From: a virus
Length of the DNA stretch: 34,907 nt
Reading direction: 5' to 3' (one strand)
Virus record (IMG/VR): IMGVR_UViG_3300021962_000335
Coordinates: 1 to 34,907 of that record
Position 1 is the stretch's first letter. Every line of letters starts with the position of its first letter. A program made the position numbers and the translations under genes. Shown here piece by piece: positions 29,105 to 33,386 of this stretch. The notes beneath the pieces are model-generated. The model saw nothing but the letters and a program-made list of their open reading frames with translations, was not told the DNA's origin and ran no database searches.

Positions 29105-29371
29105 TTATCTTTTAACACTCCATTCACGTGGTCTTTCGGGTGCAGGTTCAGGTGCTTGCATAATGGGTGTATTACTTATGCGGCGATGAAGGTACTCACC
29201 AATAGCTTCACGTATGCATGCCGATGGGTCCTTGCCCATTGACTCTGCATACTCGTACAGTCTGTCACGCAGGATAGTATTACAACGAAACGTCGTGATC
29301 CTGTTTTCCATTCCGGACTTGGCACGATAAACAGATGTCGCGCCGTCTTTATATTGGTGTCTCTCTGGCAT
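29105..29371 (-). CDS. Ribbon-helix-helix-like DNA-binding protein
   Basis: 88 aa from the ATG at 29371, overlapping the upstream stop as TAATG. The middle NRITTFRCNTILRDRLYEYA followed by ESMGKDPSACIREAIGEYLH has the beta strand and two helices of CopG/Arc-type repressors ('-S-x-x-IREAI-x-x-Y'). Basic Pro-rich tail. A candidate regulator of phage promoters in this early region. The family call rests on pattern only. Confidence 0.65.
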   Translation of the reverse strand: MPERHQYKDGATSVYRAKSGMENRITTFRCNTILRDRLYEYAESMGKDPSACIREAIGEYLHRRISNTPIMQAPEPAPERPREWSVKR

Positions 29372-31280: not shown

Positions 31281-31625
31281 TCAAAATTCTTTCCAGATGT
31301 ACACCGAGTTGTTTGTCCTGAACTTGACTGTCCAGTAGCCCTCATCGTTGATGTATTCTTCGATGATCTCTGTGATTGGTGTAGTTTGCCAGTAGTCTTG
31401 TGCTGAGTACGTGCGAGCGTATGGTGACCCGACACGGACACCGTAGCCGACTCGTGGGTAGTCTGCGTCTTTGACTGGTGTGTAGCTCTCAGGATCGAGG
31501 ATCTGGCACATAGGACCAGAGTCACCAGCGCCGTCGCTCTCTCGTGTAAGAGAGTACCTGAGGAAGGGCATAGGACCGTCTCCCTGTCTGTCTGTTGCCA
31601 TTCGTTTTGACTTGAATCCGGGCAT
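31281..31625 (-). CDS. Hypothetical protein, 114 aa
   Basis: MPGFKSKRMATDRQGDGPMP, then GYGVRVGSPYARTYSAQDYW and GYWTVKFRTNNSVYIWKEF. Beta-rich. Its start overlaps the SWIM-protein stop as TAATG. The carboxyl part ('TPITEIIEE--DEG-WTVKFRTxNSVYxWK') looks like a small conserved early phage family. Function unknown. Confidence 0.6.
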   Translation of the reverse strand: MPGFKSKRMATDRQGDGPMPFLRYSLTRESDGAGDSGPMCQILDPESYTPVKDADYPRVGYGVRVGSPYARTYSAQDYWQTTPITEIIEEYINDEGYWTVKFRTNNSVYIWKEF

Positions 31626-31984
31626 TACTTACATTCCCTTACGTGTTTGCAGTCTTTGCGGAAGCCGAAGCCTACGCATGTGCAGCTCCAGTGTTTGCCG
31701 TCTCGTGTGACGGTGTATGAGGATCCGGGTTTGGTGCCGGCGACGATGAAGGTCGTACGGTCGGTCTTAGTTGTATTACTGACGTAACCAGAGCCGATGA
31801 TGCGGTCGAGGTCGATGATGCGGAATGGAAAGTCGGTGCGGCCTGTGGACAGGCATAGGCAGTCTGGACCGACCCAGCGTGGGTTGGGTAGGACTTTGCC
31901 TGTGTATGTGTTGATGTTGGGACCGGGTGTGTTGGTTTTTACGGCTTTGACTTGGATGGTGATGTCTTGTCCGATGGCGTACAT
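31625..31984 (-). CDS. SWIM-type zinc-finger protein
   Basis: 119 aa from the ATG at 31984 (GAGG six bases upstream). The end reads GKHWSCTCVGFGFRKDCKHV, a CxC-x(n)-CxH SWIM zinc finger, a nucleic-acid or protein binding module. The amino part is a beta-rich domain (ITIQVKAVKTNTPGPNINTY) with DFPFRIIDLDRIIGSGYV. Probable early regulatory or host-interaction protein; target unknown. Confidence 0.7.
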   Translation of the reverse strand: MYAIGQDITIQVKAVKTNTPGPNINTYTGKVLPNPRWVGPDCLCLSTGRTDFPFRIIDLDRIIGSGYVSNTTKTDRTTFIVAGTKPGSSYTVTRDGKHWSCTCVGFGFRKDCKHVRECK

Positions 31985-31992
31985 GGTTTGCC

Positions 31993-32220
31993 TCAGTCGC
32001 AGGAGTCGGCTACTTTGAGTGTACAGTAGAACTTGCCGTCTTTTTCCCATTTTTCTGTGATGCGAGGGAAGTAGACGTAGTTGTGTTCGTCTTGGTATTT
32101 GCCGAAGGCATCGATGTCTTCCAGTGACTCGAAGCCCGTGTATGTGTTGTACCAGTCTCGACCTGATTTCTTGCGGTCGACGAATATGAGGTGTTTCCAG
32201 TTAGTCTTAGTATCGCTCAT
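31993..32220 (-). CDS. Hypothetical protein, 75 aa
   Basis: MSDTKTNWKHLIFVDRKKSG, then HNYVYFPRITEKWEKDGKFY. Aromatic and charged, no membrane segment. Four-base overlap with the preceding gene. GC-rich coding relative to the left part of the window. Not recognised. Confidence 0.6.
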   Translation of the reverse strand: MSDTKTNWKHLIFVDRKKSGRDWYNTYTGFESLEDIDAFGKYQDEHNYVYFPRITEKWEKDGKFYCTLKVADSCD

Positions 32221-32468
32221 TTTGCCACCAATACTTTCTTGTTGATCATATCAAAAGAGACGTAGCCGTCGTTCATGAGGATCTGGCCGGGTGCCTCGTC
32301 CTTGACGCGAGAGAAGTATGTCTCTGTATCGTAGTACTTGCAGAGCAGGCGGACATAGTCTGACTTGGTGACCATGCCCTTACGCTTGAACCGAGCCACG
32401 AACCGACGATCCTGACCATAGGTGAGGTAACCACCGGCATAATTGAACTGTGACCGCTCGAACTTCAT
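32217..32468 (-). CDS. Hypothetical protein, 83 aa
   Basis: Start at 32468, eight bases after GGAG; the in-frame ATG at 32489 coincides with the predicted transcript start and lacks a leader. MKFERSQFNYAGGYLTYGQD, then VRLLCKYYDTETYFSRVKDE. Small alpha/beta protein, first gene of the unit driven by the promoter at 32496-32523. Not recognised. Confidence 0.6.
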   Translation of the reverse strand: MKFERSQFNYAGGYLTYGQDRRFVARFKRKGMVTKSDYVRLLCKYYDTETYFSRVKDEAPGQILMNDGYVSFDMINKKVLVAK

Positions 32469-32495
32469 GTGAATCACTCCGTTTTCCATATTAAG

Positions 32496-32523
32496 ATAAT
32501 ACCACGACCAGAGGACCTGTACA
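32496..32523 (-). promoter_or_regulatory. TGTACA-family promoter
   Basis: Minus strand: AAATAAGCA then TGTACA (32523-32518), 16 bases ending TGG, TATTAT (32501-32496). The 8-bp-period array lies 24 bases upstream. Confidence 0.8.
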
Positions 32524-32547
32524 TGCTTATTTTAAAAATATTTCGAG

Positions 32548-32683
32548 ACCTGATAACCTATTGACCTGTGAACCAGTCCACCAGTCGACCTAACGACCAG
32601 TGGACCAGCTGACCTGCAAACCTATCGACCAATGGACCTGATGACCAGTGTACCTATGGACCTGTAGACCTGATGACCTACCT
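32548..32683. repeat. Seventeen 8-bp units (ACCWRNNN) in exact register
   Basis: Plus-strand ACC begins at 32548 and then every 8 bases up to 32676 without a slip. The fourth base is always T or A, the fifth always G or A; the sixth is most often T and the eighth mostly G; the seventh is free. Two or three looser ACCT units follow (32685, 32691, 32695). No reading frame survives on either strand. It lies between the 3' end of the 32757-32990 gene and the minus promoter at 32496-32523. Function unknown; see findings. Confidence 0.9.
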
Positions 32684-32756
32684 GACCTGTACCTACCCAT
32701 ACACGTATACCCACGCTGACCTACATATGCATACCTAATATACATGATCATCTCTC

Positions 32757-32990
32757 CTAGAACAAGAGACCAGCAGCCTCACGTTCCTCAGCAGTAAACT
32801 TCTTAGTAACCGCATTCTTGATCTCCGCCATCCTAGCCTGCATGCCCGGAACCTCAATAACCTCCGCTATATAGATCATCTCCTCAATATAATCATGGAT
32901 AGTCCAAGACTGAGTCTTCTGCTCACTATATGCCGACATAGTATTCACTCCAATCTGTGTATAGGGATAGAGATAAGACGCTGTATTCAT
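32757..32990 (-). CDS. Hypothetical protein, 77 or 60 aa
   Basis: Two in-frame starts, 32990 (MNTASYLYPY) and 32939 (MSAYSEQKTQ), each have GGAGTG eight bases upstream, so both could be used. The core SWTIHDYIEEMIYIAEVIEV followed by KKFTAEEREAAGLLF resembles small early phage proteins. Its message would begin at the 33233 promoter with a leader of over 200 bases containing palindromes. Function unknown. Confidence 0.6.
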   Translation of the reverse strand: MNTASYLYPYTQIGVNTMSAYSEQKTQSWTIHDYIEEMIYIAEVIEVPGMQARMAEIKNAVTKKFTAEEREAAGLLF

Positions 32991-33232
32991 CACTGACACT
33001 CCTAGATAGTAATACAAACCAGAGGAAAAGTAAATGCTAACGTCCGCGCATCTCTGTGTTTCTGCTGAGGGAACACTGATCTACGGGCAGGAACACTCAC
33101 GCATCTCTGTTCTCCTATGCCGAACACGAGCTCGCACGACTCGGCCGCCACAGTGTTTCGCATGGAGGAACACCGGGTTGTGCTGCGCGCATGACTGGCC
33201 TCCGGAGGGTCCGGATCACCATTGATAGTTCC

Positions 33233-33260
33233 ATTATACCCTGGGAAAAAAGTTTGTACA
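33233..33260 (-). promoter_or_regulatory. TGTACA-family promoter
   Basis: Minus strand: TGTACA (33260-33255), 16 bases ending AGGG, TATAAT (33238-33233). Drives the 32757-32990 gene. Confidence 0.75.
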
Positions 33261-33276
33261 TAGCGCTTTAGTATAA

Positions 33277-33305
33277 TGTACATGTGCTGTGGGATGTGGT
33301 ATAAT
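33277..33305 (+). promoter_or_regulatory. TGTACA-family promoter, 17-base spacer
   Basis: TGTACA (33277-33282), 17 bases ending TGG, TATAAT (33300-33305). A 19-bp palindrome begins about 12 bases after the -10. Confidence 0.7.
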
Positions 33306-33386
33306 GAAATGAGGACCTGTTCCTGTATGCCGAACACGGGATCTACCAACACTCCCAGCTCCCCGCTCTCCCCGGACTTCTATTAT

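Follow-up and report, generated by a model that had tools for sequence, protein, structure and literature searches.

What function is served by seventeen short words that recur at an exact 8-bp step in a viral genome, each with the same core and with other positions that vary? The question arises from the window, a 34,907-bp IMG/VR virus record, in which an array of ACCWRNNN units lies between two minus-strand genes. A possible answer was proposed in which the array is a cooperative operator for a ribbon-helix-helix (RHH)-type protein that controls the leftward early operon and is probably the last product of that operon. Taken as a whole, this reading is the preferred one, held with a confidence that falls slightly short of even.

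Units, register and extent of the array

The array consists of 17 ACCWRNNN units on the plus strand (YWGGT on the minus strand) at 32548-32683, the first unit starting at 32548 and the last at 32676, with 16 steps of exactly 8 bp each. The first-pass annotation of this DNA had described such a register without a slip, and simulation bears it out: among 5000 Markov-1 sequences modelled on the same region with matched dinucleotide make-up, the longest step-8 chain was 6, compared with 17 observed, and the lag-8 identity of the region (0.479) is far above the simulated value (0.264 ± 0.033). The extent had been given as 32548-32700, of which the start is correct, whereas the strict register stops with the unit at 32676-32683. 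Beyond the register, ACC words are irregular (at 32680, 32685, 32691, and 32695), and a right-hand tail of such words (GACCTGTACCTACCCATACACGTATACCC) occupies 32684-32757. As also read in the first pass, the fourth position of the unit is A or T (T in 11 of 17 units, A in 6) and the fifth is a purine (G in 11, A in 6). T predominates at position 6 and G at position 8, which gives the fuller word (G/A)ACC(T/A)(G/A)TN.

Within the array, identity is 0.61 at lag 8, is also high at lags 16 and 24, and reaches its maximum of 0.67 at lag 32. A higher-order 32-bp pattern is accordingly visible in the window (unit-level lag 4, p = 0.03 uncorrected), and it was not reproduced in the array of a related phage (p = 0.28). 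No other tri- or tetranucleotide chain longer than 5 was found at periods up to 15 across the window. No open reading frame of at least 60 aa in the window spans the array, which agrees with the non-coding placement claimed earlier and excludes a coding repeat. The array occurs at a single locus, once per genome; ACCWR triplets in the 167-kb relative described below are confined to that locus, and 8-bp pairs are not enriched outside it. A single genomic location is more in keeping with a local operator than with a regulon.

The related phage and constraint on the core

Judged by its polymerase, the window is part of a T4-like phage, since its DNA polymerase shares approximately 50% identity with the polymerases of T4-like cyanophages and 96% with the polymerase encoded on a 167,475-bp contig, referred to here as the relative. 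A homologous array was found in three contigs, one of them the relative, and all three carry the same allele; the comparison below is between two alleles, that of the window and the one common to these contigs. The first-pass annotation had held that its claim would fail if close relatives lacked a comparable array, and the claim survives, as the relative carries one at the syntenic place. The relative's array comprises 22 units, ordered as 11 strict-step units, two units with a GCC core (the second 9 bp long), and then 9 units. In alignment, the two arrays differ by a single 41-bp block of five units plus 1 bp, which holds both GCC cores and the one slip, and the remainder stays in register. 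The array ends match, and most of the right-hand tail is shared by both. Unit number is therefore variable (17 versus 22), register is kept apart from the one block, and the notion of an absolutely fixed spacing does not hold because of the 9-bp step in the relative.

The other part of the earlier claim, selection on the core and register, fared better. The region around the array is approximately 82% identical between the window and the relative, and the 16 alignable units show no substitution at the 48 ACC positions versus 18 at the 80 other positions (Fisher p = 1.2e-4, for one allele pair). Where the variable positions next to the core differ between the alleles, the class of base is retained: at position 4, A and T are exchanged in all three cases, which keeps W, and at position 5, A and G are exchanged in both cases, which keeps R. 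A decaying tandem repeat, derived from an old 8- or 32-bp satellite and devoid of function, could explain the difference in copy number by a block (17 versus 22 units) and the 32-bp period of the window, and simple 8-bp repeats are present in many other genomes. However, neutral decay would strike every position, and unequal exchange would duplicate entire units; constraint on the core and the step fits best, and comparison of the two alleles points to selection acting on the core and register of the array rather than to a decaying microsatellite. In addition, equally unit-diverse runs were found only in the phage's relative among the matches listed, and the satellite explanation is accordingly considered quite improbable. 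The array could also illustrate clearly how selection can maintain register and core without maintaining the identity of entire repeats.

The DNA of the array region gave no match among 50,697 phage records. Pattern scans of viral and genome collections yielded, outside the phage's own cluster, no equally unit-diverse run among the matches listed; the remaining matches listed were low-diversity repeats or lay largely within open frames. When relatives were sought by means of the neighbouring proteins, only the same three contigs were found to carry the array, and none was found in more distant relatives of gene B and of the gene at 31625-31984 (L128, L129, and L388). Contigs with a polymerase 90-92% identical either do not reach the locus or contain no match. 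No phage array of this kind was found in the open-access papers searched or among the matches listed from DNA collections, and the array may represent a variant, not previously found, of RHH-type or iteron-type operator arrays.

The flanking control region and a possible RNA form

The first pass had placed the array upstream of an early promoter and downstream of a divergent centre, and both placements hold with respect to promoter-like sites. On the left, a leftward early promoter-like site, P_B (32496-32523, minus strand), matches the consensus and is conserved in the relative; it is composed of TGTACA at 32523-32518, a 16-bp spacer, and TATTAT at 32501-32496. The -35 box is separated from the array by 24 bp in both phages, an A/T-rich, UP-element-like stretch (32524-32547, minus strand), and the start of TGTACA lies 30 bp from the first unit in each. 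On the right, divergent promoter-like sites are located at 33.23-33.49 kb; one small minus-strand gene separates them from the array. An early promoter-like family of the form AAGCATGTACA-N16/17-TGGTATAAT, with A/T-rich upstream stretches and the unusual -35 word TGTACA, was noticed at 32.5-33.9 kb; in the window, sites with TGTACA, a spacer of 16-17 bp, and TATAAT are confined to around this interval. Several imperfect dyads of the form GTGTTYC-N-GGAACAC (e.g., gtgtttcgcatggaggaacac), which look like operators or small hairpins, were also observed in the divergent early control region at 33050-33345 (and at 3110-3410 of L032).

Gene A (32757-32939, minus strand; 60 aa), which is conserved in the relative, terminates immediately right of the array, and gene B (32217-32489, minus strand; phrog_22119, unknown function) is the first gene after P_B. 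From 32489 down to 29105, all genes are encoded on the minus strand and are closely packed, with gaps that are short or absent and many overlaps, and no terminator-like site was found on the minus strand in this interval. As suggested by this layout, these genes may form one operon. A Rho rut site was considered because of the regular C pairs on the plus strand and was rejected, since both flanking genes lie on the opposite strand and the early promoter-like family has no rightward member to the left of the array.

A putative transcript of the minus strand would read through the array from gene A towards gene B, and the functional form could be this RNA, (YWGGUNNN)n, whose G.U-rich hairpins would act as a structured leader, a processed small RNA, or a factor decoy. 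The minus-strand RNA of the window allele does fold better than expected, which is not predicted by a pure DNA operator: its folding energy is -48.1 kcal/mol compared with -35.0 ± 2.2 kcal/mol when the order of the units is shuffled (none of 1500 shuffles folds as well), and its z-score against dinucleotide shuffles is -3.5. The signal of the relative has the same sign (94 of 1500 as good; z = -2.5), and wobble pairing allows GGUC and CUGG to self-pair on the minus strand only. Units 4-8 of the window (32572-32611) are nearly palindromic, and in the minus-strand RNA they yield a G.U-rich hairpin of 17 bp. However, the strong fold signal stems mainly from this one hairpin, which is not conserved in the relative, and without units 4-8, 82 of 800 shuffles are as good. 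Eleven pairs of the window are changed in the relative, of which 7 are broken, 4 are kept as one-sided changes, and none is compensatory (two alleles), so that the conserved pairing with compensatory changes that marks a structured non-coding RNA was not seen. Moreover, no Rfam match to the array was found, and the strongest constraint falls on the ACC core rather than on pairing. An RNA form is hence regarded as improbable, and still less credit is given to the more specific idea that the transcript belongs to a new class of phage non-coding RNA, in which a host or phage factor would be bound or titrated early in infection by YWGGU wobble hairpins. The suggestion of repeated AGGU Shine-Dalgarno cores is disfavoured as well; a decoy would require in each unit an AGG core matching the 16S tail, whereas 6 of the 17 units read UGGU, with T before GGT on the minus strand.

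The proposed operator and its candidate binder

In the proposed mechanism, which takes up the cooperative protein array listed among the candidate roles in the first pass, the array would act as a multi-site operator on double-stranded DNA, with one binding site per 8-bp unit and a core of 3-5 bases (ACCWR). Dimers of a small RHH protein could occupy adjacent units cooperatively and build a helical filament over 17 (or 22) units, similar to that of omega on 7-bp repeats. This filament would end 24 bp away from the P_B -35 box and may regulate the early operon that begins there, most likely by repression.

That the array is bound by a protein, probably of the RHH class, is suggested by analogy with known systems. 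RHH proteins are the class best known for reading tandem sites at such short steps: RHH dimers of MetJ cooperatively bind tandem 8-bp met boxes, and ParG sites combine ACTC tetramers with 4-bp spacers, that is, an 8-bp step. Met boxes are palindromic and few (2-5), and the array resembles them in its tandem 8-bp sites and differs in its asymmetric units and their number (17-22). The fixed step and the promoter-adjacent position next to P_B, a consensus match, are those expected of RHH tandem operators (7-8 bp), and the rotation of successive sites around the helix, noted in the first pass for an 8-bp step, would be a property of such a filament. Omega (ParB of pSM19035) binds 7-10 contiguous non-palindromic 7-bp repeats that overlap promoters (PMC9499535), forms a left-handed helix wrapped around the DNA, and acts as a repressor (PMC5016525); one dimer binds per 7-bp repeat, and full activity needs several contiguous repeats (PMC9499535, PMC5016525). 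The array shares with the omega parS heptads the contiguous, non-palindromic repeats and the short fixed step. In contrast, its step is 8 bp rather than 7 bp, its 17 units all point in one direction, its core is ACCWR instead of WATCACW, and it sits in a T4-like phage with no ParA partner found. The operon that encodes ParG is repressed by ParG itself, which coats arrays of degenerate tetramers separated by AT-rich spacers (PMC7308502). The array is likewise composed of degenerate short boxes with spacers, as are parH and O_F of TP228; however, the boxes of TP228 are both direct and inverted and have AT-rich spacers, whereas those of the phage are only direct and no ParF accompanies them.

A candidate binder is encoded 3.2 kb from the array by the last gene of the minus-strand run that follows P_B (29105-29371, minus strand; 88 aa), and if its product binds the array, an autoregulatory loop would result. 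The sequence of this protein looks RHH-like (RITTFRCN...GKDPSACIREAIGEYL) and shows 85-91% conservation in two relatives. A match to phrog_876 ("transcriptional repressor") has an E-value of 2e-5 and is the sole phrog_876 match in either record, and NCBIfam RHH-type families are matched weakly; Pfam RHH_1 gave no match to it. The predicted structure has the strand-helix-helix order with low confidence (pLDDT 57). Structural comparison yielded mainly RHH proteins (omega, PutA, CopG, Arc, and antitoxins) at low scores, with omega ranking first at Z 3.5, tied with others (Foldseek E-values all at least 0.9; VIA Z at most 3.5). In a relative, a histidinol-phosphate-aminotransferase-like gene (hisC; L135:584-1693) was seen by eye to adjoin the RHH-like gene.

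The array could instead be bound by another phage or host protein, such as an activator, a nucleoid-type protein, or a replication initiator, and serve as an enhancer or as origin iterons. All of the DNA-level evidence is equally consistent with such a binder, and the array lies in a control region beside divergent early promoter-like sites; this explanation is considered unlikely, yet it is the most credible of the alternatives. Its origin form, which the first pass had also listed, has the iteron-like look of the array as its one point in favour, and the composition of the window shows no mark at the array. In the 167-kb relative, the skew follows gene direction and has no extreme at 103 kb, and a limited search of the neighbouring proteins found no initiator gene. 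A plasmid-style centromere (type Ib par site) that segregates the phage genome would have the same architecture, that of RHH-bound par sites. However, a ParA-type ATPase (PF13614) was absent from the window and the 167-kb relative contig (controls, 14 of 14 positive), which makes partition unlikely, and the gene set looks T4-like, with no sign of a plasmid state; this explanation is given very little weight.

If the operator reading is true, a T4-like phage lineage controls an early operon with a long RHH-type nucleoprotein filament, a kind of filament for which plasmid partition and met repression have so far been the best-known cases. With natural alleles of 17 and 22 units at hand, unit number, spacing, and core can be tested directly.

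Two further observations were made by eye elsewhere in the sequences. At 310-2248 of the window (minus strand), three adjacent genes of this T4-like phage resemble a curli set (curlin-like, CsgG-like, and CsgF-like). In G001:110000-115500 (L394), the open reading frame at 112917-114350 looks like a TROVE/Ro protein and lies beside an apparent tRNA cluster.
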